Position numbers and translations under genes: made by a program. A DNA stretch of 64,000 nucleotides from Sulfurospirillum sp. (lineage in GTDB: Bacteria > Campylobacterota > Campylobacteria > Campylobacterales > Sulfurospirillaceae). The notes below the pieces were generated by a model. It worked only from the letters and a program-made list of their open reading frames with translations. It was not told where the DNA came from and did no database searches. Positions 27,455-43,133 of the stretch are shown piece after piece. Location: assembly GCA_016744795.1 (NCBI GenBank), contig JADGDR010000001.1, positions 124,001 to 188,000 of the forward strand. The letters are read 5' to 3'. The first letter of the stretch is position 1, and every line of letters begins with the position of its first letter.

Positions 27455-28018
27455 ATCACGGCTTTCATTCCTACATGTAAATGCTATAATTATTGCTGAA
27501 CAAGTTGTTATCGTTGCAACGTTATAGCTTCCGTTCCTACATGTAAATGCTATAATTGGCACTTGCGAACATAGTACCCAACTATGGTTATAGCTTCCGT
27601 TCCTACATGTAAATGCTATAATCAGCTAGCTTTTATGTGGATAGTGCAAATTGTTATAGCTTCCGTTCCTACATGTAAATGCTATAATGGACTAGGCGGA
27701 GCAGGTGGAAATGTTGGAGTTATAGCTTCCGTTCCTACATGTAAATGCTATAATCAAACTAAGCAACGTTTCATTCACCTTTTTGTTATAGCTTCCGTTC
27801 CTACATGTAAATGCTATAATTCGCAGCAATACTACTTGCATCAGCTTTTGGTTATAGCTTCCGTTCCTACATGTAAATGCTATAATAAGATTAAAACAGC
27901 TACACAGGTAGATAAAGTTATAGCTTCCGTTCCTACATGTAAATGCTATAATTAAGCTGCACCTGTCATCACTTGAGCGACTGTTATAGCTTCCGTTCCT
28001 ACATGTAAATGCTATAAT

Positions 28019-28180
28019 ACTTGGTTTAAATACAAAATCATCCCACTTGTTATAGCTTCCGTTCCTACATGTAAATGCTATAATAGAAGTATTTTTAACT
28101 ACTTCAACATTTTTGTTATAGCTTCCGTTCCTACATGTAAATGCTATAATTTTCATTTTTGAATTTAAAAAGTTCACCTA
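28019..28180 (+). repeat. Duplicated three-spacer block, copy 1
   Basis: Spacers 9, 10 and 11 of the array with the two repeats between them. The same three spacers in the same order recur at 28745-28906, offset by 726 bases (11 repeat units). Confidence 0.95.
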
Positions 28181-28744
28181 GTTATAGCTTCCGTTCCTAC
28201 ATGTAAATGCTATAATTATCTCACCATTGTCTATTTGGGCACGTGTGTTATAGCTTCCGTTCCTACATGTAAATGCTATAATAGAATAGTTACTGACACA
28301 ACCTTTTTATATGTTATAGCTTCCGTTCCTACATGTAAATGCTATAATAATGTTTATAAAATATTAAATGCATAGAGCGTTATAGCTTCCGTTCCTACAT
28401 GTAAATGCTATAATGCCGTTGTCTAGGTTTAGTGCCATACTATCGTTATAGCTTCCGTTCCTACATGTAAATGCTATAATAGGTCGCGTTTGCTTTGTTC
28501 CCTTATTTCGGTTATAGCTTCCGTTCCTACATGTAAATGCTATAATACTAGTATTTAATTTATCGCAATCTATACAGTTATAGCTTCCGTTCCTACATGT
28601 AAATGCTATAATTTATTACTACGCTCAAGCTTTAAAGGTATTGTTATAGCTTCCGTTCCTACATGTAAATGCTATAATATTAAATGAAAAGCTTAGTGAT
28701 TGGAATCAGTTATAGCTTCCGTTCCTACATGTAAATGCTATAAT

Positions 28745-28906
28745 ACTTGGTTTAAATACAAAATCATCCCACTTGTTATAGCTTCCGTTCCTACATGTAA
28801 ATGCTATAATAGAAGTATTTTTAACTACTTCAACATTTTTGTTATAGCTTCCGTTCCTACATGTAAATGCTATAATTTTCATTTTTGAATTTAAAAAGTT
28901 CACCTA
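28745..28906 (+). repeat. Duplicated three-spacer block, copy 2
   Basis: Spacers 20, 21 and 22, identical to spacers 9, 10 and 11. The spacers before and after the two blocks differ, so the shared segment is limited to these three units. Eight other spacers lie between the copies. Confidence 0.95.
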
Positions 28907-30400
28907 GTTATAGCTTCCGTTCCTACATGTAAATGCTATAATTCAAAAATTAGAACTTGATGACAAGTTTATGTTATAGCTTCCGTTCCTACATGTAAAT
29001 GCTATAATTAAAGACTACAATCCTGAACGACTACCGTAGTTATAGCTTCCGTTCCTACATGTAAATGCTATAATTCACTAAATCCTCCTATCTGCTCGTC
29101 TAGCGTTATAGCTTCCGTTCCTACATGTAAATGCTATAATTTATATTCAAACTAAATAGCTTCATCTTTCGTTATAGCTTCCGTTCCTACATGTAAATGC
29201 TATAATATTAGGGTGTCGTTTAATTCAGCAAATGCGGTTATAGCTTCCGTTCCTACATGTAAATGCTATAATTCCTATTGCTGCTTCTGTTGGATTAACC
29301 CCGTTATAGCTTCCGTTCCTACATGTAAATGCTATAATATTTCGTTCTGCATTATTTAGCTTCATCTAGTTATAGCTTCCGTTCCTACATGTAAATGCTA
29401 TAATGTCGATGAAAGTGCAATTGCTGACGATTTTGTTATAGCTTCCGTTCCTACATGTAAATGCTATAATTACAGTTACTGAATTACAAGAGCTTTTACA
29501 GTTATAGCTTCCGTTCCTACATGTAAATGCTATAATAAAATAGAACATTACAATAGTCATCATAATGTTATAGCTTCCGTTCCTACATGTAAATGCTATA
29601 ATGCTGTCTATGTTTATCCAATCAAATGGCAAGTTATAGCTTCCGTTCCTACATGTAAATGCTATAATGGAACTATGGATAATATCTAAATGTACCGCGT
29701 TATAGCTTCCGTTCCTACATGTAAATGCTATAATCTGTTTGTCTTTTGCATCTGCATTAGTTACGTTATAGCTTCCGTTCCTACATGTAAATGCTATAAT
29801 CTCTATATGAGGCATATCTTTAAAACTCCAGTTATAGCTTCCGTTCCTACATGTAAATGCTATAATTAAACCCAAAAATAGAAACGATTTACGCTCGTTA
29901 TAGCTTCCGTTCCTACATGTAAATGCTATAATAAAATTTAAAGTGCGTGTAGATATAGATTTGTTATAGCTTCCGTTCCTACATGTAAATGCTATAATCA
30001 TATAGATACAATGAAGACGTAAAAGTTCGTTATAGCTTCCGTTCCTACATGTAAATGCTATAATTAACTATTCAAGAAAGTATAGATGTTTCGAGTTATA
30101 GCTTCCGTTCCTACATGTAAATGCTATAATGAGGAATTTGCAGGATATACGTATCAAGACGTTATAGCTTCCGTTCCTACATGTAAATGCTATAATTCAA
30201 TCTCGTTGCAACCTATAACATCATAAGTTATAGCTTCCGTTCCTACATGTAAATGCTATAATAAGTAAAAATTTACTTAGCAAAGAAAATAGGTTATAGC
30301 TTCCGTTCCTACATGTAAATGCTATAATAGATACAGGCAAATATACCTTATTATTCTCGTTATAGCTTCCGTTCCTACATGTAAATGCTATAATACCTAG

Positions 30401-30490: not shown

Positions 30491-30823
30491 TTAAAACAAA
30501 AGAAGTTGATTTTTTGTGATTTTTTTCTCTTCTATTGTCTCTTTTCCAACTAAAATTTGCATTCTTCCATATTGTTTTTCTGTTATTTGTAAAATTCTTA
30601 CATTTCCTGAGCTTGGAAGATTTTGCATAATTTTATTTTGATATTTATCAACTATGTCTTGACCTTTACAAACTCTAACGTATATAGAATACTGAAGCAT
30701 CATAAAACCAAGTGATAAAATATGATTTCTAAACTTAGTAGCTTCTCGTCTATGTTTTTTGCTACTTGTTGGTAAGTCAAACAATACGATAAGTCTCATA
30801 AATCTACTTTCATAATTATTCAT
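30491..30823 (-). CDS. cas2: CRISPR-associated endoribonuclease Cas2
   Basis: The adaptation-complex subunit, 110 residues. The core MRLIVLFDLPTSSKKHRREATKFRNHIL (read in parts) carries the typical beta-1 aspartate and the type II-like TSSKKHRR. The YSIYVRVCKG strand follows. The listed start overlaps the cas1 stop by 8 bases; a second methionine eight codons later (MRLIVLFDL) could also be used. It is the last cas gene, next to the intact end of the array. Confidence 0.93.
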   Translation of the reverse strand: MNNYESRFMRLIVLFDLPTSSKKHRREATKFRNHILSLGFMMLQYSIYVRVCKGQDIVDKYQNKIMQNLPSSGNVRILQITEKQYGRMQILVGKETIEEKKITKNQLLLF

Positions 30824-31730
30824 TTACTTCCAATGATGGCAAAAGTATATCTTCATACTCTTTTGATTTTATTGCATTTGCTAAAGATGAAGCTACAATG
30901 TCACAACAGTTCAAAAGTGTTGTTTCATGGTTATCTATATTCGCTTTTACAGAAAAAAGCTCATACAATCTATTCTTGTCTTCTTTTATGAATCTCTGCT
31001 TTCTTTTGCATATATCTTCTAAACACTCTTCGTACATTTCATAAACCACAACATCTATAAAAGCACGAAATGGCTCTATTATATCATCTGCTAGACTGAA
31101 TGCATTGAGTTGATTTTTATGATGAATTCCAAAAGAAGGGATAAGTCCATAAGAAACCAAACTCCTTGCTATTGCTCCACGTATCAAAGAGTATCCATAA
31201 TTAAGAGCTTTGTTTCTCCAATCTTCTTCATCTCTTCTGTTAAATGGTGCAAACAGATACTCAAAATACAACTTAGCCGATGAACTTTCTACATTCGTAC
31301 TATCTCCTGATTTTACATGTAAAGATAAATTATATATTTTTTTATAATTTTTATTTTTTATGTATTTTAAACAATATGCCTGATTTTGGATTTTTTGTAC
31401 GATTATTTTTTGCCAAATATTCTTTTTAAATGGTTTCGTCCATCCTATTTGAAGATGTGCCATAAGAGAATATCGACTATGTTGGTGAAATGGTAAAAAA
31501 ATACCATTTGGAGTATGCTTCTCATCACAAGAAAAAAGTACAATATTAAGCTCAGCTATTTTTGAAAAAAGTGCATTTGTAATACTTACTTGATGAGTTT
31601 CTAAAACAATAACTGATATATCTTCTATGGGAACACTTATGGACTCCCCTTCCAATGGAGAATATAAAAAGTTTTTTCTATGCAACGAAATTTTTGAGGC
31701 ACTTGATATAACTACTACTCTATAACTCAT
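30816..31730 (-). CDS. cas1: CRISPR-associated integrase Cas1
   Basis: The spacer integrase of the adaptation complex, 304 residues. Visible parts are the N-terminal beta domain (VVISSASKISLHRKNFLY), the catalytic-helix region with ALNYGYSLIRGAIARSLVSYGL near 180-200, HH in FGIHHKNQLNAF near 208, and ADDIIEPFRAF with the metal-binding acidic residues near 222. I placed the start at 31730, where ATG overlaps the cas9 stop in TGATG and an AAGGA site lies seven bases before it. A longer frame reading into cas9 exists but lacks such support. Confidence 0.95.
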   Translation of the reverse strand: MSYRVVVISSASKISLHRKNFLYSPLEGESISVPIEDISVIVLETHQVSITNALFSKIAELNIVLFSCDEKHTPNGIFLPFHQHSRYSLMAHLQIGWTKPFKKNIWQKIIVQKIQNQAYCLKYIKNKNYKKIYNLSLHVKSGDSTNVESSSAKLYFEYLFAPFNRRDEEDWRNKALNYGYSLIRGAIARSLVSYGLIPSFGIHHKNQLNAFSLADDIIEPFRAFIDVVVYEMYEECLEDICKRKQRFIKEDKNRLYELFSVKANIDNHETTLLNCCDIVASSLANAIKSKEYEDILLPSLEVNE

Positions 31731-34609
31731 CACTTCATCCTTTTTGTTCCTACTCTTTTTTCTGATTTTATCTCCGTACAAATTCCTAAAGGACAAACCT
31801 GATATTTTTTAATGTATTCTAAACTACCAGTAGAAAACCTATTTTTTGAAGCATTAAATTTTGCATCTAAATGATTTGCAATAGCAAATCTTCCATCTGA
31901 AAGTGAAAATTTCATATAACCTTTTATTGGTTCTTTGTTTTTTTGTTTTATCTCTATAAACTCATTTTTAAATATAGAAAAAATAAACTCAAAATTTTCA
32001 TCTACATGTACATCTTTTATTGTTTTAACTGGCAAATAATTTTTTTCAAAATCAGATGGATAAAGATAAATAAAATGATACTTATCATCTTTTTTAAATA
32101 TATCTATTCTTTTTACTTCTCCATTTTCTGCTAGCCCACCATTGACTTCAAAATGTCCTTTTTGTTTTTCTAATTTTTTAGAATAAATAGTATCTTTATG
32201 AGCGCAACCACTTACCCCACGTCTTGGAGCAATAGAAACAAATATATCATCAATACTAGCTTGCACTTCATCTCTAAAATTTTTCATCGGAGCTTCAAAT
32301 ATTAATTTTTTTGCTTTTTCTTCTTTACTCTTTGTTGCAAATTCATATAATTTTGCAGATATAGTTGATAGTCTTTGGACTTCACTTTGCGTTGCGAATG
32401 CAACTATAATGGCATCAACAGCATGATGAAGATGATTATCTCTACTTTTAGTGCCTACTGCCCAATTGTGTCTTAACATACTTGTCAACATTCCATTTAT
32501 GGTAAGAACTTTTTTCTTACTCTTACTTGTAAGTTCTAAGTTCTCTTCTATAAAATTTTTTAGAAATTTTGCCATATATGCTGTATCATTTATATTTCTT
32601 TCTCTAAACTCTTTTGCCGAATTTTTATCAAAATTTTTCTTTAAAAGCCTATCTCTTTTTGCTTTCCTTATATTTTTAAAACTTTTTACAAAACCATCAA
32701 ACCACTCCCAATCTTTTCCCTCATCCATAAAATATTCATAAGGAGTTTTATTTTTCTTATTTTGATTCTCTTTTACCAAACATAACACTTTATTGTTCAA
32801 TCCATCTTCAAGACTTCTACTAAAAGGTAATATATGATCAATCTGCACGTAACCGTATTCCAATAAGCTCTCTGGTAGTAATTTTTCACCACTATATATG
32901 CATCTATAATCTTGTTCTTGAAGCAATCTAAACTTTAAAAGTTCTTTTCCTCTTGGTGCTCTTTTGTAATCTTCCATAAACTTATGAACAATACCCTTTT
33001 TCACATCTTGATACTTTTGCATATCTTTTTCTAGTTTATTCCTATCTTTATGAGATTTTTTTATCTCTCTTGTTAATTCTATATGTACTTTATCAAACTG
33101 TCCATATTTTCTTATCAGTGCATTAACAATTTTTCTTGTCTGAGCAATTGCTCTTTTTACCACTGGATTTGTAAGTTCATTCATTTCATCTTTGTTTAAA
33201 GCTCTTAAAAAAGTCTCCTTTTTTCCATTTGCTAATTTATATCCTATTTTTTCAACTGCTTCATCATAACGTTTCCCCTCTTTCATCCAAAATACAATCT
33301 TTTCAATAGCTTTAATACTTATATGCAAAAAATGCTCAAAATGAATTTTTGCTATAAGTGCTTTAATAAGTATATTTTTTTCACTTTCTTCCAAAGAACT
33401 AAACTTCAACTTATTTAACTCTCTTTCTATCAAATCATCACTTTTATGATAAGAAAATATTTTAGCTATCTCATTTAAAAGATTTTTATCTTGAAAAAGG
33501 TTTTGCCAATGAGTTTTTGATAGAACTTTTTCTATAACTTTTCTAAGCTCATGAAAACCTTTAAAAGCACTTATAAATTGTGTGGCTTTTTTTGAAACTT
33601 CTCCAGTTTTTTTATCTATTGGATAAAAATCTATGCCTTTAAAATGACTACTTTTATCTAGTCCAATTACATCTCTTATTTTAATATATGTAGGTTTTTC
33701 ACTATGTTTACACAACTGTATTGATTTTTCAAGTTCAATTTTATTAAAGCTTCTTTCTTGCCCCACTTTATCAATTATTTTTGTATTTATGAGTTTTGAA
33801 AGAGTTACAAATTCCTCACTGCTATAGGCTCTTTTGGCTGCTCTTTTCTCTTTTTTTCCTTCAAGAGTACATGAACCAACCATTTTATCTACACTTGCAA
33901 AATCTTTTTGCTTTGAAAATATTTTTACGTATTTATCTTTAAAATTATCTTTTGCAAAAATATTACTAAACTCTTTTTGCTTTTCAAAAATCATATTTAT
34001 TTCATCAAGTAACATGTCTCGTGAAAGGCTATATTTATAATCATCTTTTTTGTTTCTTCTCGTTTTTGTTTCTTGAGTAGTTTTGTATATAGCTTCACCT
34101 ATTGTGAAATAACCCTTTAGTAATTTTTTATTTTCTTCAATAGCTCCTAAAACTTTTTTCCCTTCTTTATCTCCATTTTCTTCGACTTTTCTATTTGACT
34201 TATAACCCCTTCTTTTTGCTATATGTGTTAACACTCTTGCAAATTCTTTATTTGAAAGTTTCCGCTTTATTGATTCACTTCTTAATTGCCAAATATCAAT
34301 CCTCTCTTTTTCTCCATATATATTTACTTGTGAAAAAAGTTCTTTTTTTGAAAGTTCAAAATATGAAATTAAAAGATTTTTTATAGCTTTTATTCTTTGT
34401 CTTTTTCTCTTTATAGTCCGTCGGGCTCCTCGTGCCAATCTTCGTGGAAGAGCCAAAGGTTCACCAGTTTTTGGATTTTCCGCTACTGTAAAGATTCTAA
34501 CACCACTTTTAATAATTTTATTATTTAACACATTATTTTCGTCATACTCTATAACAGCCCATCCAACTGAACTTATACCCATATCTAAACCTAAAATTTT
34601 CTCCGACAT
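31730..34609 (-). CDS. cas9: Cas9 endonuclease, type II-C
   Basis: RNA-guided DNA endonuclease of 959 residues, close in size to the compact Campylobacter type. RuvC-I is ILGLDMGISSVGWAV with D9. The arginine-rich bridge helix RRLARGARRTIKRKR starts near 55. RuvC-II is VHIELTREI near 508, and the HNH motif IDHILPFSRSLEDGLNNK is near 590. RuvC-III is HHAVDAIIVA near 728, followed by the PAM-interacting part. All catalytic residues appear present. With only cas1 and cas2 beside it (no csn2 or cas4), the system is II-C. A GGAG site lies upstream. Confidence 0.97.
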   Translation of the reverse strand: MSEKILGLDMGISSVGWAVIEYDENNVLNNKIIKSGVRIFTVAENPKTGEPLALPRRLARGARRTIKRKRQRIKAIKNLLISYFELSKKELFSQVNIYGEKERIDIWQLRSESIKRKLSNKEFARVLTHIAKRRGYKSNRKVEENGDKEGKKVLGAIEENKKLLKGYFTIGEAIYKTTQETKTRRNKKDDYKYSLSRDMLLDEINMIFEKQKEFSNIFAKDNFKDKYVKIFSKQKDFASVDKMVGSCTLEGKKEKRAAKRAYSSEEFVTLSKLINTKIIDKVGQERSFNKIELEKSIQLCKHSEKPTYIKIRDVIGLDKSSHFKGIDFYPIDKKTGEVSKKATQFISAFKGFHELRKVIEKVLSKTHWQNLFQDKNLLNEIAKIFSYHKSDDLIERELNKLKFSSLEESEKNILIKALIAKIHFEHFLHISIKAIEKIVFWMKEGKRYDEAVEKIGYKLANGKKETFLRALNKDEMNELTNPVVKRAIAQTRKIVNALIRKYGQFDKVHIELTREIKKSHKDRNKLEKDMQKYQDVKKGIVHKFMEDYKRAPRGKELLKFRLLQEQDYRCIYSGEKLLPESLLEYGYVQIDHILPFSRSLEDGLNNKVLCLVKENQNKKNKTPYEYFMDEGKDWEWFDGFVKSFKNIRKAKRDRLLKKNFDKNSAKEFRERNINDTAYMAKFLKNFIEENLELTSKSKKKVLTINGMLTSMLRHNWAVGTKSRDNHLHHAVDAIIVAFATQSEVQRLSTISAKLYEFATKSKEEKAKKLIFEAPMKNFRDEVQASIDDIFVSIAPRRGVSGCAHKDTIYSKKLEKQKGHFEVNGGLAENGEVKRIDIFKKDDKYHFIYLYPSDFEKNYLPVKTIKDVHVDENFEFIFSIFKNEFIEIKQKNKEPIKGYMKFSLSDGRFAIANHLDAKFNASKNRFSTGSLEYIKKYQVCPLGICTEIKSEKRVGTKRMK

Positions 34610-41353: not shown

Positions 41354-42913
41354 CTATATATTTGCCCCTGTTTTGTTCTTGTTACTTCTTAATCCATCTT
41401 TCATAGAAACATAACTATTTAGCGCTCCAATATAGGCATTTGCTGTTGCAAGCATAGTATCAACACTTAATCCATGTCCCATAATAGCAGGCTTACCATC
41501 TTCAAATGCAACTTTAACTACAACACGAGCTAAAGCATCTTTTCCTTCAGTAACTGCGTCAACTTTATAATCTCTAAGTTCACCTTTAACATCACAAACT
41601 CTGTCAATAACTTTAAAAACTGCATCCATGGTTCCATTACCAATAGCTGCGTCCGTTATCTCTTTACCATCATGAGAAATAGTAACAGCTGCATTTGCAA
41701 CTCCACCAGGATTACAGTCACTTAACTGAAGAGTTAGTAACTTAAATACTTCAGGAATTTTTGTAATCTCGGCAGAAACTAAAGCCCTAATATCATCATC
41801 AAAAATCTCTTTTTTTGCATCAGCTAAAACCTTGAATCTACCAAATGCTTCATTTATCTCTTCATCTTTTAAATTAAATCCTAATTTACAAAGCTTATCT
41901 TTAAAGGCATGACGCCCAGAGTGTTTACCTAAGACAATGGAGTTTTTATCCAATCCTATATCAGTTGCTTTCATAATTTCATATGTTTCCATATGTTTTA
42001 ACACACCATCTTGATGTATCCCACTCTCATGAGCAAAGGCATTTTTACCAACAATTGCTTTATTTGGCTGTGGCTCAATTCCAGTGATTGTTGCTACTAA
42101 TCTACTTGTTGGATATATCTCTTTTATATTTATATTAGTATCAAACCCACCAAATAGATCATGTCTTGTGCGAAGCGCCATGACCACCTCTTCTAAAGCT
42201 GCATTTCCAGCTCTTTCACCCAAACCATTGATAGTACACTCTACTTGTCTTGCACCATTTAAAATACACTCAATTGAGCTAGCAACGGCAACACCTAAAT
42301 CATTGTGATTATGCACAGAAAGAATTGCTCGATCTCCTACACTCTCATGCAAAGATTTTATAATAGCACCCATCTCACTTGGCATTCTATAACCTACTGT
42401 ATCAGGAATATTTAGTGTTGTTGCTCCTGCTTGGATAACAGCATCAAGAATCTCTTTCATAAAAACTATATCACTTCTTCCTGCATCTTCACAACTAAAC
42501 TCAATATCATCACAAAAAGTTTTAGCATAAGTTACAGAATCAACAGCTTTTTTTATAACTTGCTCTGGAGTCATTTTTAACTTATATTCCATATGTATAG
42601 GACTCGTAGCAATAAAAGTATGTATTCTTTGTAACTTTGCACATTTAATAGCATCACCTGCTGCTTTTATGTCGCGGTCCAATGCACGAGCAAGTGAACA
42701 TACAGTAGAACTTTGTACTTGCTCACTTATCCTTCGTATAGCGTCAAAATCACCAGGACTTGCAGCTGCAAAACCTGCCTCGATTATATCTACTCCAAGT
42801 TTTTCTAACTGTAAAGCTAATTGTATTTTCTCTTCTGTATTCATTGAAGCACCAGGACTCTGCTCACCATCTCGTAATGTTGTGTCAAATATTATAATAT
42901 TTTCTGTTTTCAT
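41354..42913 (-). CDS. leuA: 2-isopropylmalate synthase
   Basis: First committed enzyme of leucine synthesis, condensing acetyl-CoA with 2-oxoisovalerate; 519 residues. The start [18 protein letters not shown] gives the substrate- and metal-binding block. [15 protein letters not shown] near 203 supplies the metal-binding histidines, and [13 protein letters not shown] follows near 235. The C-terminal 150 residues form the leucine-feedback LeuA dimer domain. Expression is probably also controlled by the leader peptide and attenuator at 42938-43062. Confidence 0.96.
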
Positions 42914-42937: not shown

Positions 42938-42959
42938 AAAAAGCTTTACATGTAAAGCT
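42938..42959 (-). terminator. leuA attenuator terminator
   Basis: An 18-bp perfect palindrome, AGCTTTACATGTAAAGCT at 42942-42959, is followed on the minus strand by TTTTATAT. It lies between the leucine-rich leader peptide and leuA and is centred on a TACATGTA copy. A second copy with the same 12-base core lies in the leader peptide gene at 43043-43054 and could pair with it to form an antiterminator. Confidence 0.7.
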
Positions 42960-42984
42960 ACGCAATTTGTATTTTATTTATATT

Positions 42985-43062
42985 TTAAAAGTTGAGTAAG
43001 AAGAGCAGAAGAACGTTATATCTCTTTTGTATTGAAATATGATTTACATGTAAACATGTCAT
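42985..43062 (-). CDS. leuL: leu operon leader peptide
   Basis: A 25-residue reading frame ending YNVLLLFLLNF, with five leucine codons in six (CTT, CTG, CTC, TTC for Phe, TTA, CTC). It has a strong AAGGAG ribosome binding site five bases before the ATG. A terminator hairpin lies 26 bases after its stop, and leuA follows. This is the layout of a leucine attenuator: with leucyl-tRNA scarce, the ribosome stalls in the leucine run and the terminator should fail to form. Confidence 0.8.
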   Translation of the reverse strand: MTCLHVNHISIQKRYNVLLLFLLNF

Positions 43063-43127
43063 AACGTCTCCTTTTTAGATTTTAGTAACTAAAGCAAAAA
43101 GTTTAGCTACTGTATTTTAATTTTTCC

Positions 43128-43133
43128 ATTATA
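43128..43133 (-). promoter_or_regulatory. Likely -10 box of the leuL-leuA promoter
   Basis: TATAAT on the minus strand lies just after the pssA stop codon. Transcription would start near 43121, about 60 bases before the leader peptide. No good -35 box was found, which is common in Campylobacterota. Confidence 0.5.

Follow-up and report, generated by a model that had tools for sequence, protein, structure and literature searches.

The 2-isopropylmalate synthase gene leuA of this bacterium is preceded by leuL, which, as judged from comparison of related loci, is a real and conserved leader peptide gene. Its run of leucine codons goes beyond chance because it is conserved in most of the loci compared, and leuL probably senses leucine ahead of leuA. 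By the same comparison, the conserved parts are the leader, its peptide and a helix between the Shine-Dalgarno (SD) sequence of leuL and its leucine codons; two copies of the palindrome TTTACATGTAAA that lie in the region are not conserved. It is tentatively proposed, at somewhat less than an even chance, that leuL-leuA is a leucine-responsive leader in which two copies of a genome-wide palindrome were recruited as terminator and antiterminator. We read the leader as one of a known kind, and the recruitment of an undescribed genome-wide palindrome, so far seen in this lineage alone, as the new part.

The window, i.e., the whole stretch of 64,000 nucleotides that was analysed, corresponds to C7:124001-188000 in a draft genome of 2.68 Mb, and all positions are relative to it. 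The source genome was placed in the family labelled f1, which holds the Sulfurospirillum genomes, and among named relatives the closest by LeuA is Sulfurospirillum arcachonense DSM 9755 (91% identity). The genes pssA and leuA, which are encoded by the minus strand, flank the region 42938-43133 (Table 1). The promoter match there is TTGCTA-17-TATAAT (10/12); promoter-like sites in the region number 2, against 2.8 expected from shuffles, and TAGTATAAT at the end of pssA is found again in relatives. An earlier note on this DNA had described a 25-residue leader with five leucine codons in six, and this leader is indeed present, the leucine codons being 18-20 and 22-23. In its putative translation, leuL has what marks the leader ORF of leucine attenuators, namely an SD and a run of leucine codons upstream of a leu gene. 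The terminator-like hairpin reported after leuL was also recovered: AGCTTTACATGTAAAGCT forms 7 bp, starts 25 nt past the stop codon of leuL (26 in the note) and is followed by UUUUAUAU. The same palindrome core was found inside leuL, as described, at a spacing of 31 nt from the leucine run instead of about 36.

Table 1. Features of the leuL-leuA locus, by position in the window
Feature	Positions	Strand	Remark
-10 box TATAAT of the leuL-leuA transcript	43133..43128	-	directly past the end of pssA
Decayed-looking remnant of the start-codon element, intact in relatives	43083..43117 (limits approximate)	-	alignment with L017
SD of leuL, GGAG; 5′ arm of the SD:Leu-codon helix	43071..43068 (arm to ~43061)	-	
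leuL, leader peptide gene	43062..42985	-	MTCLHVNHISIQKRYNVLLLFLLNF
Upstream copy of TTTACATGTAAA within leuL	43054..43043	-	codons L-H-V
Leucine codons	43011..42994	-	CTT CTG CTC TTC TTA CTC = LLLFLL
Terminator-like hairpin AGCUUUACAUGUAAAGCU	42959..42942	-	-4.7 kcal/mol; second TTTACATGTAAA inside
Second copy of TTTACATGTAAA	42956..42945	-	in the hairpin
U-run	42941..42938	-	3′ of the hairpin
leuA, 2-isopropylmalate synthase	42913..41354	-	LeuA by Pfam and NCBIfam

Two LeuA searches yielded 110 loci, in 109 of which the start of leuA was located; 99 loci were distinct. To count as a leader, an ORF had to be 15-40 codons long, be preceded by an SD, start with ATG or GTG and have at least 4 leucines in its last 14 residues. 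By this definition, a leucine-run leader precedes leuA in 76 of the 99 distinct Campylobacterota loci. The 23 loci that lack one include L024, L065 and L101, in which a contig end is close upstream, as well as at least one locus lost through the start-codon filter (L072, which starts with TTG). The leader peptide of the source genus reads MTxxHVKxISxQKRxNVLLLFLL, that of Sulfurospirillum and other groups MNSVDIGIMKSIKxLPKIEIKNALLQNLLSL, and that of Sulfurovum MKTIIxxxTIFTKDSxLLLLSL; the leucine codons are kept in all leader groups. No Rfam family matched the leader region at the gathering score. With E-values up to 5 allowed, the sole match was to idnO, on the opposite strand and with a score well short of its gathering threshold (E 0.55), and seven relatives gave no relevant leader-family match. 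The earlier note knew of no such leader in Campylobacterota, which agrees with the Rfam result and with the literature searched (bioRxiv and many subscription journals excluded), where no leu leader or amino-acid attenuator is described for the phylum. A leuA leader may be mentioned in small-protein studies of Campylobacter jejuni.

The most widely conserved RNA feature is the pairing of the leuL SD with the first leucine codons (GGAGA... with ...UCUCC), the 3′ arm being the stretch just before and at the start of these codons. RNAalifold recovered this helix in 18 leaders of group g3 (Sulfurospirillum sensu stricto) and in 23 leaders of the Sulfurovum type, and in part only in six g1/g2 leaders. 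Over 75 leaders, the mean duplex energy was -11.9 kcal/mol for the true pairs vs -10.7 kcal/mol for permuted pairs, with none of 5000 permutations reaching as low, and -5.7 kcal/mol when the leucine regions were shuffled. The upstream TTTACATGTAAA of leuL is located in the loop of this helix. Closure of the helix, we infer, would hinder renewed initiation at leuL after the ribosome has passed.

The proposed mechanism starts from three features seen in the sequence and its comparison, i.e., a promoter-like box recurring at the end of pssA, the conserved leucine-run peptide and the conserved SD:Leu helix. When Leu-tRNA is ample, the ribosome would complete leuL and the SD:Leu helix would close behind it. 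With the upstream TTTACATGTAAA trapped in the loop of the closed helix, the hairpin at 42959..42942 would form and transcription would end ahead of leuA. A shortage of Leu-tRNA would stall the ribosome on the leucine codons, so that the SD:Leu helix could not form. The freed upstream palindrome would then pair with the terminator palindrome and leuA would be read, this step being specific to the lineage. Left free, a palindrome would be accessible whatever the state of the ribosome; in the model, the conserved SD:Leu-codon helix is what makes it conditional. The two copies would have been recruited, as terminator and antiterminator, from a genome-wide repeat of the Sulfurospirillaceae.

The switch was modelled by equilibrium, not co-transcriptional, folding of the leader as far as the U-run, the ribosome footprint being held unpaired. 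The probability of the terminator in the source leader was 0.96 with no ribosome and 0.98 with a ribosome at the stop codon; with the ribosome on leucine codons 18, 19, 20, 22 and 23, the mean was 0.29. By a slightly different measure, the values were 0.95 in the free leader and 0.97 for a ribosome at the stop codon, falling to 0.46 for the first leucine codon and 0.37 for the third. Masking the upstream palindrome during the stall raised the probability from 0.31 to 0.82. The contrast was equalled by 2 of 150 shuffles that kept both palindromes in place; these shuffles do not isolate the share of the palindrome, because the SD:Leu helix is destroyed in them too. The modelled switch is broad, as stalls at codons 14-17, which are not leucine codons, also reduce the terminator, to 0.36-0.50, and a smaller or larger footprint alters single values. 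L019, L020 and L021 kept a terminator probability of 0.91-0.99 whatever the state of the ribosome; L017 is uninformative, as its value was always 0.00 in the register used. The role of antiterminator that the earlier note assigned to the upstream palindrome was thus favoured by the folding of this one sequence, but not by that of these three relatives. In the RNA folding that it had suggested as a check, the ribosome mask produced the contrast here; taken as a whole, the leader does not fold better than shuffled sequences (z 0.03). In silico, the upstream palindrome is supported as able to compete with the terminator, in the model only when the ribosome is on or near the leucine codons, and in this genome only.

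The palindrome itself is far from confined to this locus. There are 310 copies of the 12-mer in the source genome (4 of the word read backwards), 7-283 in five genomes of the same genus, 14-792 in g3 genomes and 0-8 in g5; 23 genomes of other families contain it at most once each. As a leu-specific element the palindrome is excluded by these counts, 310 here and as many as 792 in relatives. The source contig has 45 copies in 400 kb, against 0.84 expected from an order-4 Markov model, and G007 has 98 in 400 kb against 0.39. When genes were mapped simply as ORFs, some three quarters of the copies fell within them (35/45 in G000 and 69/98 in G007), and copies wholly inside one ORF use the two frames free of the stop codon. 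The density in G007 is even over the 800 kb seen, with 18-29 copies per 100 kb. That the palindrome is a genome-wide repeat is not visible from the 64-kb stretch alone. Because the 12-mer is so abundant, the pair at leuL is weaker evidence than the earlier note had assumed, and its abundance makes an incidental pair at leuL plausible.

The word is kept with unusual rigidity. Variants with one changed base deviate almost always at one of the two outer positions, and position 1/12 accounts for 15 of 17 mismatches. Between the Sulfurospirillum genomes G007 and G026, whose flanks are 82% identical, ungapped windows contained 60 sites, of which 42 were identical and 15 had a single difference, as compared with 11.5% identity among control 12-mers (n=46,520); the remaining 38 of 98 sites fell outside ungapped windows. 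Between the source contig and S. arcachonense, 7/19 sites are identical vs 7.0% of controls. The complete genome G016, with its 14 copies, retains the word at none of 67 aligned sites. Gain and loss of copies proceed by substitution, since 48 of 52 aligned coding sites in G016 are without a gap. A search of G016 for an alternative over-represented word gave none that was clear. In G009:C1:700001-900000 (L186-L195), from a genome without TTTACATGTAAA, the words ATCATGAT (62 vs 24 in 200 kb) and TATCATGA (107 vs 40) are mildly raised.

What such a word might serve was sought in the literature and among candidate genes. In the literature searched, the 12-mer stands in 3 papers, none of which deals with these bacteria to judge by title and abstract, and no description of it in these bacteria was found. 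No methyltransferase common to all copy-rich genomes was found with PF01555 and PF02086 in G000-G022 and 14 genomes of other families, nor with PF00145 in 29 chosen genomes. At E 1e-10, G005 (283 copies) has no match to PF01555 or PF02086, and G007 (791 copies) none to PF01555 or PF00145. ComEC is present in 57/60 genomes and DprA in 56/60; these competence genes do not discriminate, because they are equally present in genomes without the 12-mer. In G028:C8 and G032:C4, the DprA match is in two parts, 35 kb and 24 kb apart and on one contig each, as if a large element were inserted in dprA. The window also carries a Type II CRISPR array at 27521..30394, with 44 identical 36-bp repeats at 66 bp spacing, and adjoining cas genes at 30491..34609 on the minus strand (cas2, cas1 and a 959-aa cas9); the repeat, GTTATAGCTTCCGTTCCTACATGTAAATGCTATAAT, includes TACATGTAAA, which is ten bases of the genome-wide palindrome. 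We consider it less likely than not that TTTACATGTAAA is the recognition word of an undescribed genome-wide Sulfurospirillaceae system for DNA uptake, chromosome organisation or methylation, two copies of which were exapted in this genome as the terminator and antiterminator of a leucine attenuator. If true, a repeat spread for another reason, and kept by strong selection even inside genes, would have turned into a regulatory switch.

The strongest alternative to a recruited switch is that the leucine leader is real and the palindromes are ordinary copies of the repeat with no switching role, the terminator being regulated otherwise, e.g., by the SD:Leu helix, transcription-translation coupling, Rho or leuA translation. 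This is a serious contender, though we would put it at less than an even chance. It is favoured by the distribution among relatives, in which the exact TTTACATGTAAA occurs within 300 nt upstream of leuA in 2 of the 99 loci, i.e., the source locus with two copies and L018, of the same genus, with one copy within leuL and no terminator hairpin found. The pair is missing from all 98 other loci, and pairing of palindromes was accordingly rejected as a general mechanism of leuA leaders. The earlier note had taken the pair as the switch of the leader, with its loss in close relatives as grounds for giving this up; L018, L019, L020 and L021 each lack the pair, and the pair as the defining switch is not supported. 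In the conservation check that the note had proposed, the leucine-run leader upstream of leuA was upheld, but the exact palindrome was not. The g1 relatives keep H-V-K but not the palindrome (L017 GTACATGTAAA, L019 GTACATGTTAA), which also favours ordinary copies, as do close pairs of the 12-mer elsewhere, 27 and 99 bp apart and inside ORFs. Neighbouring copies less than 100 bp apart make up 3 of 44 spacings in 400 kb (random mean 0.5, P 0.016).

The terminators of relatives bear on the same question. L019 has the hairpin AGCUUUAAAUGUAAAGCU-UUCU, with TTTAAATGTAAA in it and without an exact upstream copy; L020 and L021 have unrelated terminator hairpins with U-runs, and L017, from S. arcachonense, a hairpin with little U-run. 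In g3 leaders, with ~50 nt between leuL and leuA, leuL is present and a terminator hairpin was not found, which again suits ordinary copies. Automatic detection over all leaders was too strict (it missed L021 and chose the wrong hairpin in L019), so that its 'none' is no proof of absence. A simple terminator scan did not flag the leuL hairpin, which is weak, with its -4.7 kcal/mol and four U followed by AU. The hairpin copy nevertheless looks like a terminator, because it alone among the 10 intergenic copies in 400 kb has a 3-bp arm extension and a U-run. This singularity, together with a folding contrast that just 2 of 150 shuffles reached, speaks against ordinary copies. In Sulfurovum-type loci (L071-L123), a conserved hairpin UCUAAUUAACC..GGUARAAUUAGACAAUUUU lies between leuL and leuA, and some of these loci, such as L089 and L109, have a small hairpin with a U-run farther down.

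An arrest-peptide function of the leader is possible, and a second alternative gives the nascent peptide (LPKIEIKN in many relatives, SIQKRYN in this clade) the part of leucine sensor, as an arrest peptide that would hold the ribosome in response to leucine, instead of the codons alone. The sequence K-S-I-K-x-L-P-K-I-E-I-K-N before the leucine codons is conserved in its amino acids across several groups, e.g., in L023, L045, L091 and L108. All 38 leaders with LPKIE also share K at -5, -2 and +6 and N at +7, and 37 of them have G at -8. The pN/pS over LPKIEIKN is 0.025 vs 0.33 for six codons nearer the N-terminus, but the former value is too low because the leaders were picked by LPKIE, which makes five of the eight codons invariant by selection. 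AAA AAC is, moreover, invariant at the third base also, which points to an RNA constraint there. The source clade has a different peptide, and it is the leucine codons that all groups retain; the nascent peptide as the sensor is thus improbable. Least probable is that the palindromes are sites of a DNA-acting protein (a repressor or nucleoid protein) regulating leuA at the DNA level: a perfect 12-bp palindrome under strong genome-wide constraint would suit a dimer, but most copies cannot be operators because about three quarters lie in ORFs, and both leuL copies are downstream of the promoter.

The putative remnant upstream of leuL belongs to a separate matter. An 80-83 bp element (TACAGA..CTCGTGCTTYAGTCGCGAGGAATTTTT-hairpin-AAAAAGGGGACAATAAA) lies directly 5′ of the ATG of many unrelated genes, which by eye are trpA-, nadC-, parB- and nuo-like, and some copies are in tandem. 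It was seen at L271, L272, L274-L277 and L279-L289, and in the leuA leaders L017, L019, L024, L040 and L044. The element begins with its own ATG, and copies such as L277 would encode a peptide of 28 codons with a TGA stop that overlaps the ATG downstream. Allowing one mismatch, it occurs in 16 of the 22 genomes of Sulfurospirillaceae, most often in G019 with 34 copies, and the reversed control gave 0; the exact element was found in none of 200 mostly complete genomes of the phylum, and a search of the literature by its core words gave no description. The remnant scores against the S. arcachonense copy (L017) at a level that none of 500 shuffles reached, the two regions being orthologous anyway.

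A leader with a conserved SD:Leu-codon helix thus recurs over many Campylobacterota families. A 12-bp palindrome needs a function if it reaches 792 copies in a genome and, between species with flanks of 82% identity, is identical at 70% of its orthologous sites, as this one does; its sporadic loss in one complete genome of the same genus (14 copies) offers a natural comparison. If the two copies also act as a switch, a regulatory element would have arisen from a dispersed repeat.

The enterobacterial leuL/leuABCD systems are ribosome-mediated leucine attenuators. The locus described here resembles them in its short leucine-run leader ORF before a leu gene, its terminator-like hairpin and its predicted alternative pairing. 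Unlike in enterobacterial leuL, the SD of the leader itself forms part of the sensor helix, a copy of a genome-wide palindrome would take the antiterminator role in place of a private segment, no Rfam leader family matches, and in most relatives no terminator was found. For the palindrome, DNA uptake sequences such as the DUS of Neisseria and the USS of Haemophilus are one comparison. The 12-mer is like these in having hundreds of copies, mostly in genes and made by substitution and not insertion, in genomes with ComEC and DprA; it differs in being a perfect palindrome and in that genomes lacking the word have these genes just as often. Uptake of DNA through a methylated motif has been reported for C. 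jejuni, in the part of PMC8468864 consulted. Another comparison is with the highly iterated palindromes (HIPs) of cyanobacteria, such as HIP1, GCGATCGC, which in the sections of PMC4390886 consulted reach densities of 1000-2000 copies per Mb and, in its section 3.1, are at least 75% GC with one exception of 50%. Set against these sections, the 12-mer is 12 bp long and AT-rich, with 2/12 bases G or C; it reaches ~115 to 310 copies per Mb in copy-rich genomes, and the three methyltransferase families searched do not follow the copy-rich genomes. As far as the same sections describe HIP1, the 12-mer resembles it in having hundreds of copies over genes and intergenic regions, far above expectation, a rigid core with deviations at the outer positions, and sporadic loss within a clade (G016). 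The HIP1-related CGATCG lies within a CRISPR repeat in Synechocystis (PMC6604393, in the part consulted), just as ten of the twelve bases of the palindrome lie in a CRISPR repeat here.
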